Assembly: GCA_030446465.1 (NCBI GenBank)
Contig: JAUJNI010000002.1
Coordinates: 881,273 to 945,272, forward strand
Direction of reading: 5' to 3'
Source of the DNA: Actinomycetota bacterium
GTDB taxonomy: Bacteria; Actinomycetota; CADDZG01; WHSQ01
DNA: 64,000 nucleotides
Of the stretch, positions 16,392-63,897 are shown piece after piece. Numbering within the stretch: the stretch's first letter is position 1; each line of letters begins with the position of its first letter. A program made the position numbers and the translations under genes. The notes below the pieces were generated by a model that was given only the letters and a program-made list of their open reading frames with translations, did no database searches and was not told the origin of the DNA.

Positions 16392-16395
16392 CCTG

Positions 16396-16538
16396 CCTCT
16401 TCTCCCATCCGGGCTTGTCGCCGTAACACGGCGATTCACCGTCGGCCCCGGAGTTCCACCGGATCAGCCCTCCGTGCTCGACGCCTGGAGGGGTCGCGGG
16501 CTCTAACCGCCGGCCGGGAGTTTCACCCTGCCCCGAAG
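16396..16538 (-). ncRNA. FMN riboswitch (RFN element) upstream of ribD
   Basis: Read on the minus strand, the leader has the conserved RFN blocks in order: CTTCGGGGCAGGGTGAAA, CCCGGCCGGCGGT, GAGCCCGCGA, GGTGGAACTCCGGGGCCGAC, and a closing GGATGGGAGAAG. These match the six-helix FMN aptamer. A -10-like TATACT (16589-16594) lies about 50 bases upstream and could start the leader. High FMN would be expected to shut down the ribD-ribE-ribBA-ribH operon. Confidence 0.93.
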
Positions 16539-16649
16539 AGGTTCCTTTGTTGTCCACTGGCACCGGTATGCCGGTTCCAGATCAAGCAAGTATACGACCG
16601 CCAACCGGCGGTGGGCAGCCCGGTTGGTCCAACCACCCGGGCGCAGGGG

Positions 16650-17648
16650 TCAGCTTCCGGCAACGCCAGTCTGAGCCGCCTCACCCTCCCTCGGTTCCTC
16701 TCCGTCAACCGGCGTGGCGCGGCGACGATCGATGGCATAGGAGGATCCGTGGTCCTTCTTGGCGACCTGCTTCATCTCCGTGGCGATCTCCGAAGCCTCC
16801 CAATGGCTCGAGATCGGCCGTTGCTCGGTTGTCGCTATCCCCACGCTCACTGAGACCAACGGGAAGTGATGGATCTCGCTGCGCCTGTCTGCCACGACGA
16901 TGTAGCCCCTCTCGACATCCAGAGGGTCGTACAGCTCGATGATCGAGCGATCCCAACATTCGCAAATGTCCTTGGCGACTCCCTCGCAGGCTGGAGGCGC
17001 GACGATCGCCACGAAATCGTCGCCACCGACATGACCCACGAATGCGCCGTCGCGGCCATGGTTACGAACCGACTCGCCGATGCATCTCGCAAGAAGCTTG
17101 ATGACCTCGTCACCACGCAAGAAGCCGTAGTGGTCGTTGAACGACTTGAAGTTGTCGAGGTCCACGTACATGAGGGCGAACTCGGCTTGCGCATCGACGC
17201 GAGCGATCACTTCTTCTTGGACCTGCACGTTGCCCGGGAGCTTCGTGAGCGGGTTTAGGTCTCTCATCTCACGGGATCTTCTGAGGGCCGACTTCACTCG
17301 GGCGACCAGCTCCAGGGGGTCGAAGGGCTTGATGATGTAGTCGTCGGCCCCCCTGGTCAGCCCCACAACTTTGTCCGCAGACAATGACTTGGCCGTGAGC
17401 ATGACCACCGACATGTGTCTCGTGCGTGGATCGCTCCTCAACCGCTCGCAGACTTCGTAGCCGTCGAGTCTCGGCATCATCACGTCGAGAAGGACGAGAT
17501 CAGGCAACATGTCATAGGCGGCCTGGAGCGCCTGCTCACCGTTGTTGGCGACTGCGACCTCGAACCCTTCGAGCCTCAGGTTCACTTCAACAAAACGTGC
17601 GATGTCCTCGTCGTCATCCGCGACCAGCACTAGATCCCGCCTAGTCAT
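16650..17648 (-). CDS. Response regulator with diguanylate cyclase domain (REC-GGDEF, GGDDF variant)
   Basis: The 332-residue protein has an N-terminal receiver domain (acidic DDDED near residue 12, phospho-acceptor Asp in LVLLDVMMPRLDGYE, Lys in DYIIKPFDP) and a C-terminal GGDEF domain starting at NPLTKLPGN. The signature motif reads GGDDF, a conservative change seen in some active cyclases, with the metal-binding YVDLDNFKSFND intact. It probably makes cyclic di-GMP when phosphorylated. No cognate kinase lies beside it; it overlaps rpe by eight bases. Cyclic di-GMP is relevant because a c-di-GMP riboswitch precedes pilA in this window. Confidence 0.88.
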   Translation of the reverse strand: MTRRDLVLVADDDEDIARFVEVNLRLEGFEVAVANNGEQALQAAYDMLPDLVLLDVMMPRLDGYEVCERLRSDPRTRHMSVVMLTAKSLSADKVVGLTRGADDYIIKPFDPLELVARVKSALRRSREMRDLNPLTKLPGNVQVQEEVIARVDAQAEFALMYVDLDNFKSFNDHYGFLRGDEVIKLLARCIGESVRNHGRDGAFVGHVGGDDFVAIVAPPACEGVAKDICECWDRSIIELYDPLDVERGYIVVADRRSEIHHFPLVSVSVGIATTEQRPISSHWEASEIATEMKQVAKKDHGSSYAIDRRRATPVDGEEPREGEAAQTGVAGS

Positions 17649-58352: not shown

Positions 58353-60144
58353 GCTTGTCCACCGCCTCACAAGAGAGCTTGCCGAGCGCCACGTTCAGCG
58401 AGGTGTTCGGGTCCTGGGGATCGGTGGGGGCAGTAATGATGCCGATCGCCGAGTCCAGGGAGGCCGAGGTCGCACCTGTCGCCTCGACGATCGCCTTTGG
58501 GCTGGTCGTTGTGAAGCTGTCCAGGTAGCCGTTCTGGAGGACGTTCCCGGTGGAGTCGGTCACTCGAAAGAGATGGACATCCTCTTGGTCGGTTAGCCCG
58601 TCGAACACGATCGGGTTCGTGGACTTCAAGTCCGCGAGGACCGTCGCCGCGTTGTCCGAGTTGAACGGTACGTCGACCGCCTCGACCACCGGAATACCGC
58701 CATCCTGGAGGTTGGCGTCGCGGTAATAGCGCAGCGTGCTGCTCCACGTCGCGGAGGCGGTCGACGTCGAGGCGCTCCCGGTCGACCGGCAGGTCGTCGC
58801 GGCCGCAAAGTTGAACAGCGACAGGACGGCCTTGTCCCCAGGGATGAAGGTCGTCGGCAGCAGGAGCAGCCTTCCAATGGAGGCGGAGGCCGCGGTCTCG
58901 ACCCTTCGAAGAGACGCCGGAACCGTGGGAGTGGTCTCCGCCGACGAGCTCCCGCTTATCTTGCCGCCGCCGAAGGGCGCAACGGACAACACGTGAGCGG
59001 TGGGGTCCAGCTTGAGGGCGGCCGTGGTTCTCGTGTCCGCTTGATTGTTGACCCAGAAGAGCTCGCCCCCGCCCGTGAACTCAAAGGGGCCCGAGGTCTT
59101 CGGGAGCTCGTTGACGACCTCGGCCCCCGGATCGTTTACGAGGGTGGCGTCGGCAAAGGCGACCTGAGCCGCCGGCACGAGGTCCGTGTTGATTGCGGCG
59201 ATCGAACCGGCCGATGCGTCCGGCGCCGGAAAGCTGTTGGGCGGCGCCCTCAGGACCACCGAGGCCCCCGACTCGTCCACGAAGGTCGAGCCCGGCGTCC
59301 CCTCGAACTCCCCCCGCGTCAGGGTGAGCTGGGCGGCGCGCACATCGGTCTCCGCCGCAGCGGTCGCCTGGATCTCCACTGCGGAGGTCGAGCGCCCTGC
59401 GGTCGCCACCAAGCTGCTGGTCCGGCCCAGCGGGTCGGTAAAGGAGGTGAAGGCTTGCACCGCGTAGTCGGTGCGCGCGGTAGCTCTGAGCTTGTCGGGG
59501 GTCAGCCTGCGGGGGCCGATGAGGCTTGCGAGCGAGAACTGCTTGGTTCTTCCTCCCAGCGCCCACTCGGCGGTGATGTTCAGCCGGAGCAGCTGCGAGG
59601 GGGGAAGCTCCGTTGTGACCGAGCTCCAGCTGTAATCACTCGGCGGCGGCGTGACCTGAAAGCTTTGCGGCGTATCCGTAGTCACCGGGGACACGAAAGC
59701 TGCGCTGTAGGTGAGCGTGTAGCCCTGCGGTAAGCCGGCCGATCCGTCGCTCAGGTTGATCGGACATGCGAGCGTCGCACTGGCGCTGGGCTGCTTCGAC
59801 GAAGCGGAGCACACGGTCTTGAAGGTCCCGGCGTCGTCTCCCGACGATATGTATCCAGCGCCGCTGCCCGACACCCTGTCTGGGAAGTACAGATCCAGCA
59901 CGTCAACGCGGGCCGGGGTCGTCTGGTTCTTCACCGATTCGAAAAACGGCAGACCTCGGACCCGCTCCATCGCCTGCACCGCGACGCTCTTGCCGCGGGT
60001 GAACGACCTCGACAGGTTGGAACCCCTGAGCGAGCTCGCAAGCAGCGGCACCACTCCGAGAGTGACGATCGAGAAGACCAACAGGGCCGCGAGCGTCTCG
60101 ATGAGCGTGTAGCCGGCGGAGCCTTTGTCGCGCCAGACGCTCAC
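58345..60144 (-). CDS. PilV-like prepilin with unusually large C-terminal domain
   Basis: The N-terminus has AGYTLIETLAALLVFSIVTL, a prepilin motif with Tyr in place of Phe. At 599 residues it is three to four times longer than usual PilV proteins. The extra part is Ser/Thr/Ala-rich and beta-like, with a few Cys. It might be an adhesive tip pilin. It overlaps neighbours on both sides. Confidence 0.78.
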   Translation of the reverse strand: MSVWRDKGSAGYTLIETLAALLVFSIVTLGVVPLLASSLRGSNLSRSFTRGKSVAVQAMERVRGLPFFESVKNQTTPARVDVLDLYFPDRVSGSGAGYISSGDDAGTFKTVCSASSKQPSASATLACPINLSDGSAGLPQGYTLTYSAAFVSPVTTDTPQSFQVTPPPSDYSWSSVTTELPPSQLLRLNITAEWALGGRTKQFSLASLIGPRRLTPDKLRATARTDYAVQAFTSFTDPLGRTSSLVATAGRSTSAVEIQATAAAETDVRAAQLTLTRGEFEGTPGSTFVDESGASVVLRAPPNSFPAPDASAGSIAAINTDLVPAAQVAFADATLVNDPGAEVVNELPKTSGPFEFTGGGELFWVNNQADTRTTAALKLDPTAHVLSVAPFGGGKISGSSSAETTPTVPASLRRVETAASASIGRLLLLPTTFIPGDKAVLSLFNFAAATTCRSTGSASTSTASATWSSTLRYYRDANLQDGGIPVVEAVDVPFNSDNAATVLADLKSTNPIVFDGLTDQEDVHLFRVTDSTGNVLQNGYLDSFTTTSPKAIVEATGATSASLDSAIGIITAPTDPQDPNTSLNVALGKLSCEAVDKRA

Positions 60145-60668
60145 TGCAGCTCAACCCTTCCGGTGATGGGCGTCACCTCGACCGTGCGTGAGCGGTCGAT
60201 TGCATCGACGGTCACCTCGACCTCGCCCTGAGTTGCGGTCCCCCTCGCATAGAAGAAGACGAACTGGCTTGCCGTCGATCCGGGAAACTTGGTGGAGCAC
60301 AGCGGCGTAACTCCGGGGGCCGGCTGAAACGAGACGCTCGTCACCGTGGCCGAACCCTCGAGGCTTCTCGTACCTATTGGCGAGCAGACGTCGTCGTCCG
60401 AGGTCGACAAGCTCTTGGGGTCGTAGCGAACCAGCGAGTAATCGGACGAGCCGGCCACGAACCTGGCTCCGTAGACCAACGGGTGCGATTGCGATGTCGA
60501 GAGCACCTGCAGCTGGCGAAGTTGACCGACGACTTCATCGGCGGACCCGGTGAGCTGCCGCTGCAACCAGTAGTGACGGACCGCACTTCCGCCCAAGGTC
60601 AAAAGGATGGCGGCAATAGCCATCACAACAAGCAGCTCGATGAGTGTGAAACCGTCGTCCCTGTGCAT
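60141..60668 (-). CDS. GspH/FimT-type pseudopilin
   Basis: DDGFTLIELLVVMAIAAILL lies at the N-terminus, followed by a GspH-like domain of about 150 residues. It is the first gene of the minor pilin set fimT-V-W-X and lies behind the pilA terminator. Confidence 0.82.
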   Translation of the reverse strand: MHRDDGFTLIELLVVMAIAAILLTLGGSAVRHYWLQRQLTGSADEVVGQLRQLQVLSTSQSHPLVYGARFVAGSSDYSLVRYDPKSLSTSDDDVCSPIGTRSLEGSATVTSVSFQPAPGVTPLCSTKFPGSTASQFVFFYARGTATQGEVEVTVDAIDRSRTVEVTPITGRVELQ

Positions 60669-60749: not shown

Positions 60750-61187
60750 TCAGCCGGTAGGACCGGTGCAGGCCGTGCTCTGCGGCGAACCGACACCCGA
60801 TGCGTACCACCGGTCGATGCTGGTGTCGTTCTTGGACTCCGCGTGCAGGCAGTAGCCGTCGGTCGCCGTGGCGCCGGCGGCCGGGTAGATGATCTTCACG
60901 GTCAGCTCGCTGGCCGAGTACGTGAACCCTTCCTTCGACGCTCCTTGAAGATCGGACAGAGTGCCCGTGTATTTGCCGTCATTGCCAGTTGCATACGACT
61001 CCTGAGCCGTGGCGAGGTTCTTGACGGCCGACTCCGCTTGCGACTCCCAACCCTTCTTGCGCTGGTTCAGGAAAACCGGGATTGCGATCGCCGCCAGGAT
61101 GGCGATGATCAGGATCACTACGAGAAGCTCGATGAGGGTGAAACCGCCCTCACGCTCTTCTCTCATGCTGCGGAATCGCTGGAACAT
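60750..61187 (-). CDS. pilA: Type IV major pilin PilA
   Basis: The protein starts MFQRFRSMREEREG|GFTLIELLVVILIIAILAAI (cut after the Gly before Phe), with Glu at position 5 of the mature pilin. The mature part is about 130 residues, with two Cys (YCLHAESK and TACTGPTG) that could form the D-loop disulfide. GGAGG lies six bases before the ATG. It is controlled by a promoter and riboswitch of its own and followed by a terminator. Confidence 0.92.
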   Translation of the reverse strand: MFQRFRSMREEREGGFTLIELLVVILIIAILAAIAIPVFLNQRKKGWESQAESAVKNLATAQESYATGNDGKYTGTLSDLQGASKEGFTYSASELTVKIIYPAAGATATDGYCLHAESKNDTSIDRWYASGVGSPQSTACTGPTG

Positions 61188-61294
61188 CCAGCACCTCCCC
61201 CTTCTTCGTGTCCCCGCAGCCGGTCCGGGGACATCTACAGGACTGTTCGGTTGCTGCCTGCCTGTGGGGGGGTCGCTGAAGGACCACCCTGTCG

Positions 61295-61375
61295 CAGGTA
61301 GCCCGGCTGGCCTCGAGGGCCCCGTGGCTTTGCGTCCCCGCCTCGCGACGGGTTTGCCTTTGCTGTGCTACAAGG
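61295..61375 (-). ncRNA. c-di-GMP-I riboswitch (GEMM) upstream of pilA
   Basis: The minus strand reads GCACAGCAAAGGCAAACC, then a hairpin CCCGTC-GCGA-GGCGGG with a GNRA loop, then GGGACGCAAAGCCACGGGG and AGCCGGGCTACC. These are the conserved blocks of the GEMM-I aptamer, including both GCAAA segments and the GNRA tetraloop. A strong hairpin (61209-61233, TGTCCCC/GGGGACA) lies between aptamer and pilA without a T-run, so control may be at translation. Confidence 0.88.
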
Positions 61376-61394
61376 TTCCGGCTTGCTACCAGAT

Positions 61395-61422
61395 TTATCG
61401 GCGAACGGGAAGGCCGCCTTTA
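61395..61422 (-). promoter_or_regulatory. WhiG/sigma-28-type promoter of pilA
   Basis: TAAA (61419-61422), 16 bases, then GCCGATAA (61395-61402) on the minus strand is an exact match to the WhiG/SigD/FliA consensus. The predicted transcription start falls about 10-15 bases before the riboswitch aptamer. Confidence 0.82.
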
Positions 61423-61463
61423 GCTGCCGGTTCTCCGCAAAACTACCCAGCGAGCCACTCGGA

Positions 61464-62681
61464 TCACTTGATCAGGTCGAAGATCTTGAACATGGGCATG
61501 TAGAGAGCGATGACCATTGCCCCCACGATGCTGCCGAGCACCGCGATCATGACCGGCTCTATCAACGAGGTCAGCGACTCCGTCGTGGATTCCACCTCTT
61601 GATCGTAGAAGTCGGCGACCTTGTCTAGCATCGCGTCGAGGGCGCCGGTGTCCTCCCCCACCGCGATCATCTGGATGACCATGGGCGGAAAGATCTTGTG
61701 GCGGCCGAGCGGCGCGGACATGCTCTCGCCGCTGCGCACGCTGTCCTTGACGTCCTGGGAAGCACGGGCCAGGACCTCGTTTCCGGTCGACTCCGACACG
61801 ATGTCGAGCGCCTGCAGAACCGGCACACCGGCGCGCAGAAGCAGGCCGAGGGTTCTCGTGAAGCGCGACAGTGCAACCTTCCTGAAGAGGTCCCCGAAGA
61901 CGGGGATCTTCAACTTGGCCTGGTCGAACTTGAGCCTTGCCGCGGCATTGCTCCTACGAGCACGCTTGTAAGCGATCGTCCCCGCGATTGCTACCAATAC
62001 CAGAATGGGCGTGATGATCTTGGCCTGCGCGCTGATCGCCACAAGGATCTTCGTGGGCAAGGGAAGCTCTCCGCCGAGGTCGTCGAACATATTGGCGAAG
62101 GTCGGAACTATGAAGATCAGCATGATCGTCAACAGCATCACCGCGATCCCCGCGACCACCACCGGATAGGTCATCGCCGACTTGACCTTCTGCCTTAGCT
62201 TGTAGTCGGCCTCGAACGTGTCGGCGACCCGCATGAGCACGGTGTCCAGCTGGCCACCGGTCTCACCAGCACGAACCATCGAGACGTAAAGGGTGCTGAA
62301 GACCTTGGGGAACTTGGTCATCGCCGCCGACAGGCTGGAACCACGTTCGACGTCCTCGCGCAGGGACCCAAGCGAGCTCGCTAGCAACTTATTCTCCGTC
62401 TGCTCGGCCAGGATGTTGAGCGCCCGTAGAAGCGACAAGCCGCTGTTGATCATGGTCGCAAATTGACGCGAGAAGATGGCCAGGTCCTTCAGCTTCACCT
62501 TCTTGGGCAGAAGGTTGATCTCCATCTTCATCGAGACCTTCGACTCTTTGGTTATCTGGATGGGAACGAGCCCCTGGGAACGCAGGCGCGACGCCACCGC
62601 CGCCTCGCCGTCGGCCTCTATGTTTCCTGTGACGAGCCGTCCTTCCTTGGTCCGAACGCGGTATGCGTAAGAGTCGGCCAT
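61464..62681 (-). CDS. pilC: Type IV pilus platform protein PilC
   Basis: The 405-residue protein has the T2SSF repeats (LAIFSRQFATMINSGLSLLR and ALSRFTRTLGLLLRAGVPVL) and three or more membrane helices. It organises pilus assembly at the inner membrane. It overlaps pilT by one base. Confidence 0.94.
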   Translation of the reverse strand: MADSYAYRVRTKEGRLVTGNIEADGEAAVASRLRSQGLVPIQITKESKVSMKMEINLLPKKVKLKDLAIFSRQFATMINSGLSLLRALNILAEQTENKLLASSLGSLREDVERGSSLSAAMTKFPKVFSTLYVSMVRAGETGGQLDTVLMRVADTFEADYKLRQKVKSAMTYPVVVAGIAVMLLTIMLIFIVPTFANMFDDLGGELPLPTKILVAISAQAKIITPILVLVAIAGTIAYKRARRSNAAARLKFDQAKLKIPVFGDLFRKVALSRFTRTLGLLLRAGVPVLQALDIVSESTGNEVLARASQDVKDSVRSGESMSAPLGRHKIFPPMVIQMIAVGEDTGALDAMLDKVADFYDQEVESTTESLTSLIEPVMIAVLGSIVGAMVIALYMPMFKIFDLIK

Positions 62682-63823
62682 CAGTGTCTGCCCGCCAGGC
62701 GGTTGAACTCCTCGACATGGTGGCAGCGCTCGAGCGCCATCTCGTACGTCACCTTGTTCTTCTTGACCAGCTCGGCCAGGTGCTGGTCCATGACCTGCAT
62801 CCCGTACCGGCCCCCAGACTGCATCGAGGTGTAGATCTGGTGCGTCTTCCCCTCCCGGATGAGGTTTCTGACTGCGGGAGTAGCAACCAGCACCTCTGCT
62901 GCAACCGCTCGACCCGCGCCGCCGGCGAGAGGCAGGAGCTGCTGCGACACGACGCCCGCAAGGGTGCCGGCGAGCTGAACCCGGATCTGCTGCTGCTGGT
63001 GAGGGGGAAAGACATCGATCACACGGTCGATCGACTGGGGCGCGTCCTGCGTGTGCAAGGTTCCAAAGACGATGTGACCCGTCTCGGCTGCGGTCAGTGC
63101 CGTCGAGATGGTCTCGAGGTCTCGCATCTCGCCCACCAGGATGACGTCCGGGTCTTGGCGAAGCGCATGCTTGAGGGCGTTTCCGAACCCGTGCGTATCG
63201 ACGCCGACCTCTCGCTGGTTGACCACCGACTTCTTGTGGCTGTGGAGGAACTCGATCGGGTCCTCGACCGTCATGATGTGCTCCTGGCGTTCGGAGTTGA
63301 TCACGTCGACCATGGCTGCGAGCGTGGTCGACTTCCCCGAGCCGGTCACGCCCGTGACGAGGACCAGACCCCGCCGGAGGTCGGCGAACTCCCTCACCGA
63401 GGGAGGAAGGCCTAGCTGGTCGAGCGTCTTGATCTCGAAGGGGATCATTCGCATCACCGATCCGAGCGAGTCCCGCTGCTGGAACACGTTCACGCGAAAG
63501 CGAGCTTTACCCGGAAGCGAGTAAGAGACGTCGAGCTCGAGATTCGACTCGAAGGTCTCACGCTGGCGCTGCGTGAGCATCGAATAGATCATCTCCTGCA
63601 GGTCTTGGCGGCCCATCTTCCGATAGCCCTCGAGTGGTTTCAGAGCGCCGTTGACTCTGACCATCGGGGGCCGGCCTGCGGTCAGGTGGAGGTCCGAAGC
63701 GCCGCCGTCGATCATCTCCATGAGGAAGGCTCCGAGGTCGGGCTCCCTCTCGGGCACCGTGACGGTGCCGGTCGCGCCGTAAGGGCGCTCGACCACTGCG
63801 TCGTTCAACCTGTTCGTTTGCAT
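62681..63823 (-). CDS. pilT: Twitching motility ATPase PilT
   Basis: The 380-residue retraction ATPase shows the Walker A VTGVTGSGKSTT, the Asp box EDPIEF, Walker B-like DPDVILVGEMRD and the His box TGHIVFGTLHT. The N-terminal part (about 1-30) is variable. A ribosome binding site AGGAAAG precedes the ATG. Confidence 0.95.
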   Translation of the reverse strand: MQTNRLNDAVVERPYGATGTVTVPEREPDLGAFLMEMIDGGASDLHLTAGRPPMVRVNGALKPLEGYRKMGRQDLQEMIYSMLTQRQRETFESNLELDVSYSLPGKARFRVNVFQQRDSLGSVMRMIPFEIKTLDQLGLPPSVREFADLRRGLVLVTGVTGSGKSTTLAAMVDVINSERQEHIMTVEDPIEFLHSHKKSVVNQREVGVDTHGFGNALKHALRQDPDVILVGEMRDLETISTALTAAETGHIVFGTLHTQDAPQSIDRVIDVFPPHQQQQIRVQLAGTLAGVVSQQLLPLAGGAGRAVAAEVLVATPAVRNLIREGKTHQIYTSMQSGGRYGMQVMDQHLAELVKKNKVTYEMALERCHHVEEFNRLAGRH

Positions 63824-63869: not shown

Positions 63870-63897
63870 TTATCGGCGGGCCAAGCGAAAAGGTTCA
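63870..63897 (-). promoter_or_regulatory. WhiG/sigma-28-like promoter before pilT
   Basis: TGAA (63894-63897), 16 bases, then GCCGATAA (63870-63877) on the minus strand: the -10 is perfect and the -35 has one mismatch to TAAA. It is about 47 bases upstream of pilT. A CCTGCGAACGCAGG hairpin lies in the leader. Confidence 0.6.

Follow-up and report, generated by a model that had tools for sequence, protein, structure and literature searches.

The pilA gene of an uncultured actinobacterium (genome size 2.76 Mb), located in the 64,000-nt stretch of DNA analysed here (the window), is preceded by an exact WhiG-type promoter followed by a c-di-GMP-I riboswitch aptamer. We consider it probable that c-di-GMP acts on pilA serially, through RsiG and WhiG at initiation and through an OFF riboswitch in the leader, that pili are made at low c-di-GMP, and that pilA belongs to a conserved WhiG-riboswitch regulon. 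At the level of sequence, the promoter, the aptamer, WhiG, an RsiG with twin c-di-GMP motifs, and the association of promoter with aptamer across both the genome and the phylum are established.

The pilA product, a type IV major pilin-like protein of 145 aa (60750..61187, minus strand), carries the N-methylation motif (PF07963 N_methyl, 30.6 bits; GFTLIE) and has pilC, pilT and pilM as neighbours, which identifies it as a type IV pilin. Upstream on the same strand lie pilC (61464..62681; PF00482 T2SSF, 233 bits) and pilT (62681..63823; PF00437, 160.8 bits). A gap of 276 nt separates the pilC stop (61464) from the pilA start (61187), and it is this gap that holds the WhiG-type promoter. The Shine-Dalgarno (SD) sequence of pilA, GGGGGAGG, is found at 61194..61201 (minus strand). 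A second pilin-like protein with a GFTLIE motif is encoded 3' of pilA (60141..60668, minus strand), probably on the same transcript. It should be noted that the start codon of pilA lies inside a small hairpin, GCTGGATGTTCCAGC, at about 61177-61195 of the window (GTCGGATGTTCCGAC in genome G001); this hairpin covaries in family members and is also present in those without the riboswitch.

The promoter, TAAA-GGCGGCCTTCCCGTTC-GCCGATAA at 61422-61395 on the minus strand, matches the sigma-28/WhiG consensus (TAAA-N15/16-GCCGATAA) at every position, with an exact -35 element TAAA at 61419..61422, a 16-nt spacer and an exact -10 element GCCGATAA at 61395..61402. It is the sole exact match in the window when spacers of 14-17 are allowed (0 expected from shuffles) and the sole exact N16 match in the whole genome. 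The exact promoter reported upstream of the aptamer in the first-pass annotation was thus recovered letter for letter; the same annotation placed the transcription start 10-15 bases before the aptamer, and this distance has to be revised, because the -10 box predicts a start 6-9 nt further on (61384..61390, centre about 61388), about 20 nt before the aptamer. No sigma-70-like promoter was found at 61150-61520. The pilA promoter is presumably used by WhiG-RNA polymerase. Another WhiG-type promoter with one mismatch, TGAA-N16-GCCGATAA, lies 46 nt 5' of pilT (63870..63897, minus strand) and is not followed by a riboswitch.

The aptamer occupies 61293..61367 of the minus strand and matches the Rfam family RF03167 (c-di-GMP-I-GGC) over its full length (positions 1-80) with 61.5 bits and an E value of 4.5e-12, above the gathering score of 59 bits; the Rfam search thereby bore out its presence in the leader. 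It had been described as a complete GEMM-I aptamer. Completeness stands, but the subclass does not: the best Rfam family is the GGC family RF03167 rather than RF01051/GEMM-I, its sister family in the same clan. Ligand-contact equivalents were read by eye from the RF03167 alignment and the five aptamer sequences of the genome; an automated count of position 20 put several aptamers out of register and does not enter the statistics. The positions that we take to be equivalent to G20, A47 and C92 of the Vc2 aptamer are G, A and C in the pilA aptamer. Its core is almost identical to that of the other copies in the genome, and its outer P1 pairs are poor. The ligand is presumably c-di-GMP.

The first-pass annotation treated the WhiG-RsiG part of its proposal as conjecture, neither gene being in the window; both have now been located elsewhere in the genome, which was searched by family and by pattern. 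WhiG (C6:519025-519699) is the one match to FliA_WhiG that lies far above the cut-off, with 279.4 bits against 189.6; the absence of a WhiG homologue is excluded. It carries Sigma70_r2, r3 and r4 (regions 2, 3 and 4), is flanked by an xerC-like ORF and rpsB as read from the translations, and has as its best solved relative the Streptomyces venezuelae WhiG in complex with RsiG (6pfj, 353 bits). RsiG (C1:276399-276875) matches PF22802 in two stretches (95.8 bits) and S. venezuelae RsiG (6pfj_T) with an E value of 2.8e-13, and it contains twin perfect c-di-GMP signatures of the form E(X)3S(X)2R(X)3[QH](X)3D, ENEVSFERRLCHARID and EAVLSTRRQGLHEVLD. Seven GGDEF proteins are encoded in the genome. 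This RsiG would be expected to hold WhiG in a c-di-GMP-dependent manner. The gene of a GAF-GGDEF diguanylate cyclase has a two-mismatch WhiG-type site at its start (L309, C6:52050-52077), a hint that c-di-GMP may be under feedback of the kind reported for Rubrobacter.

The pairing of promoter and aptamer is not confined to pilA. Four of the five RF03167 aptamers in the genome follow a WhiG-type promoter (two mismatches or fewer) at distances of 5, 11, 12 and 27 nt; considering how dense such sites are genome-wide, this would occur by chance with a probability of about 1e-12. The products behind the four pairs are PilA, a CAP-domain secreted protein, an Asp-rich repeat protein and a repetitive membrane or secreted protein. 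The fifth aptamer, without a promoter, precedes a secreted glycosyl hydrolase. One riboswitch-controlled protein (L012, C6:749070 region) is made up, beyond a membrane segment, of numerous DNSAGTTAGDVSGQT-like repeats.

Across the phylum, the sample comprised 121 genomes (this one and its relatives), 59 of which contain the aptamer, and the best promoter site within 90 nt upstream was recorded for each of their 114 aptamers. Four sites were exact, 18 had one mismatch and 21 had two, i.e., 43 at two mismatches or fewer, against expectations from shuffles of 0, 0.05 and 0.65, or about 0.7 in total. At the same threshold the reversed motif gave 0 matches, downstream DNA 0, and far-upstream DNA 2. 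The aptamers with promoter matches are spread over many families, and about 40% of aptamers have no promoter even at three mismatches. In the genus of Rubrobacter marinus, nine of ten genomes have the aptamer, and a promoter with at most one mismatch is found at 21 of the 30 Rubrobacter aptamers and in none of 1,500 shuffled sequences. RsiG is likewise associated with the aptamer, being present in 58 of the 59 genomes with an aptamer versus 30 of the 62 without (Fisher 6e-11, with related genomes counted as independent and P values inflated for this reason). In the exception, genome G030, the aptamer is present, RsiG and WhiG are both missing at the threshold applied, and there is no promoter either (5 mismatches). 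Thus, the earlier suggestion that one messenger could act on pilA twice gains support from the presence of WhiG and a twin-motif RsiG and from a pairing that recurs far beyond chance. On balance, we incline to the broader reading that the c-di-GMP riboswitch regulon of Actinomycetota is largely a sub-regulon of a c-di-GMP-controlled sigma factor, which would place a phylum-wide serial double lock on surface-protein genes, with pilA as the clearest case.

An independent scan of 84,980 species genomes used a pattern consisting of the -10 box and the aptamer core only. It returned 52 loci, more than half of which have an exact TAAA 14-17 nt upstream, and most have TAAA or one mismatch to it at the right distance, although the -35 element was outside the scan pattern. 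A chance origin of the promoter was rejected by the shuffles, by the reversed-motif, downstream and far-upstream controls, and by this post hoc test of the -35 element. The 52 loci include Actinomycetota, Desulfobacterota, Nitrospira and Armatimonadota, so the combination of sigma-28 with the riboswitch extends beyond the range of RsiG, and what the actinobacteria add to it is a sigma factor gated by c-di-GMP. In the Armatimonadota-type contigs (L171, L175, L176, L192, L201, L204, L205), a sigma-28 promoter and a c-di-GMP-I riboswitch precede, as judged by eye, a small protein resembling FlgM, the anti-sigma-28 factor. In these candidates c-di-GMP may control the sigma factor's own inhibitor via RNA. 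In Nitrospira and Desulfobacterota (L161, L165, L168, L188, L180, L208), the pair stands before proteins that look like flagellar rod or hook proteins.

Pilin genes follow about 20 of the 114 aptamers, with the aptamer mostly 60-125 nt from the start codon, and a promoter with at most two mismatches is present at 14 of the 20 pilin aptamers, as counted by reading. In the 16 genomes of the window's own family, a WhiG-type promoter precedes pilA in most of those in which pilA was found, and the riboswitch is present in six only. Thus, the promoter looks like the older layer of control, and the riboswitch like one that has been either acquired or lost. The relative L270 (genome G004) has an exact WhiG promoter on pilA and lacks the riboswitch, which represents either a natural loss or the state before gain; L272, L274, L275 and L278 have a weaker WhiG-type promoter on pilA, again without the riboswitch. 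Two aptamers, L112 (which precedes a pilin) and L069, have A instead of G at the equivalent of G20, a substitution that in Geobacter is associated with the sensing of c-GAMP.

The region between the pilA aptamer and the start codon, 105 nt long (61188..61292, minus strand), is a putative expression platform, and leaders of homologues have similar lengths. No U-tract terminator was found at 61150-61520; the Cd1-like layout, in which such a terminator and a competing antiterminator follow the aptamer, is thus absent from the window copy. A hairpin, GTCCCCG-CGGGGAC, lies 5' of the SD at 61210..61232 (minus strand), and a similar one is present in L270, the family member without the riboswitch. 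In addition, AGCCGG near the 5' end of the mRNA (61378..61383, minus strand) is complementary to CCGGCT at 61223-61218, just 5' of the SD. The helix between the mRNA 5' end (GCAAGCCGG) and the pre-SD segment (CCGGCTTGC) is kept in five family members, where it has 9-10 pairs and a covarying change (P 0.004-0.018 each), and is weaker in the window copy (6 pairs, P 0.13). Folding revealed no consistent masking of the SD across the window's family. Masking by a CCCCCCC run was seen when the window leader was folded, but the run is absent from four folded relatives, and for this reason we do not rely on it. A conserved antisequestor helix at the aptamer 3' end (CCTGC:GCAGG) was no better than shuffles in this family.

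The sign of the two inputs can be predicted from several observations. RsiG in complex with c-di-GMP sequesters WhiG (PMC8325347), which predicts less initiation when c-di-GMP is high. Leaders of other families, those of pilins among them, have terminators that lie downstream of the aptamer and separate from it. In L093 the 5' side of the terminator pairs with an aptamer strand (GGCAAACCA:TGGTTTGCC), a pairing that 6 of 200 shuffles equalled; the corresponding counts for the antiterminators of L113, L110 and L124 were 0, 5 and 7 of 200, and among the terminator leaders L057, L059, L061 and L085 no significant antiterminator was found. Separate terminators together with antiterminators built from aptamer strands predict a switch that is OFF when c-di-GMP is high, in agreement with the sign of RsiG. 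The layout of the terminator-bearing pilin leaders resembles that of the OFF switch Cd1 and differs from that of the ON switch pilM (PMC9262584). Moreover, 62 of 144 aptamers have an SD that overlaps or directly adjoins their 3' end, the start codon following 5-17 nt further on; this suggests a translational OFF switch. The window's own pilA copy is presumably OFF as well. At high c-di-GMP, then, ligand-loaded RsiG would hold WhiG and few pilA transcripts would be started; in those that leak through, the aptamer would bind c-di-GMP and turn expression down. Pili would be made at low c-di-GMP only, and pilA would belong to a larger set of surface- and secreted-protein genes under WhiG-riboswitch control, an arrangement conserved in many Actinomycetota.

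The two inputs might instead have opposed signs, with RsiG shutting WhiG off at high c-di-GMP and the riboswitch being ON, so that pilA would be expressed at intermediate c-di-GMP only. The terminator missing from the window's pilA leader is consistent with this arrangement, and there are precedents: the pilM riboswitch of the pilus operon of Geobacter metallireducens, a member of the same superfamily, is an ON switch for c-GAMP (PMC9262584), and tfoY of Vibrio cholerae receives c-di-GMP inputs of opposite sign (PMC7371385). We nevertheless regard it as unlikely, given that the terminators of other pilin leaders compete with antiterminators formed by aptamer strands, which predicts OFF, and that many non-pilin copies have the SD at the aptamer 3' end. 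It is also conceivable, with a still lower probability, that the riboswitch works as proposed while the sigma factor is free of c-di-GMP control, the coupling being a sigma-28-type one inherited from flagellar regulation. RsiG is reported to be limited to Actinobacteria (PMC8325347); the occurrence of the pairing in Desulfobacterota, Nitrospira and Armatimonadota, on genes of flagellar type by reading, implies that the pairing does not need RsiG. Against such a coupling in the present lineage are the RsiG with both c-di-GMP motifs, the near-universal presence of RsiG in aptamer-bearing relatives (58 of 59), and the finding that G030, in which neither RsiG nor WhiG was found, has also no promoter match at its aptamer.

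That the aptamer senses another ligand (e.g., c-GAMP) or has decayed, in which case the two inputs would differ, seems very improbable. RF03167 is a separate variant family, the score exceeds the gathering score by just 2.5 bits, and the weak outer P1 points in the same direction; the retained G20, A47 and C92 equivalents (by eye) and a core almost identical to those of the other genome copies argue for an intact c-di-GMP aptamer. We give even less credence to a fortuitous promoter match with pilA expressed by read-through from pilT-pilC. No terminator separates pilC from pilA and the upstream operon has a WhiG-type promoter of its own, but the pilA promoter is exact where none is expected, and exact or near-exact versions recur at pilA in relatives and at aptamers across families.

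Both parts of the proposed serial control are already known separately, namely WhiG control of pili in Rubrobacter and c-di-GMP riboswitches on pilus genes. In R. radiotolerans, type IV pilus genes are transcribed from WhiG promoters whose starts have been mapped (PMC8325347). The genome studied here shares with Rubrobacter the WhiG and RsiG homologues and the TAAA / GCCGATAA promoters in a type IV pilus cluster; in Rubrobacter such promoters also precede diguanylate cyclase genes (PMC8325347). The two differ in that RsiG has twin motifs here and a single motif in Rubrobacter, and in that a c-di-GMP riboswitch follows the promoter here, while the main text of that study mentions none (PMC8325347). 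Cd1 of the C. difficile flagellar operon and the c-GAMP riboswitch of Geobacter pilM belong to the same aptamer superfamily and likewise occupy leaders of surface-appendage genes (PMC9262584); unlike these, the aptamer described here is of the GGC subclass, its presumed sigma factor is in turn a predicted target of c-di-GMP, and the window copy has no terminator. In V. cholerae, tfoY is likewise a single gene on which c-di-GMP acts at two stages, through VpsR at initiation and through the Vc2 riboswitch, but there the VpsR promoters give riboswitch-free transcripts and the signs oppose (PMC7371385), whereas the pilA transcript from the gated promoter carries the riboswitch and agreement of the two signs is predicted. 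Bdellovibrio similarly combines FliA promoters as global regulators, a c-di-GMP-responsive life cycle and a c-di-GMP riboswitch RNA; this merRNA is non-coding, with no gene behind it, and that paper does not mark it as driven by FliA (PMC3627812). A literature search, with subscription papers outside its scope, found nothing on the pairing of WhiG/RsiG with a riboswitch. The serial, phylum-wide coupling of a WhiG promoter to a c-di-GMP riboswitch is new as far as the searched literature goes.

The significance of the coupling, in our opinion, is that an anti-sigma factor and a riboswitch, both of them known receptors of c-di-GMP, are joined in series on one transcript, and that in many Actinomycetota this pairing is the rule rather than a curiosity. 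It raises a testable question, namely whether one signal acting at two stages sharpens the response, cuts leakage or combines two affinity ranges. It also ties the c-di-GMP-I-GGC riboswitches to one specific sigma factor and supplies a ready set of WhiG targets in lineages that form neither spores nor flagella.

Elsewhere in the window, the sole other Rfam match is an FMN riboswitch (RF00050, 92 bits) at 16393-16544 on the minus strand. A response regulator with a degenerate GGDEF domain is encoded nearby (16650-17648, minus strand); the coding region of the gene upstream of it contains a two-mismatch WhiG-like site, which is probably due to chance.
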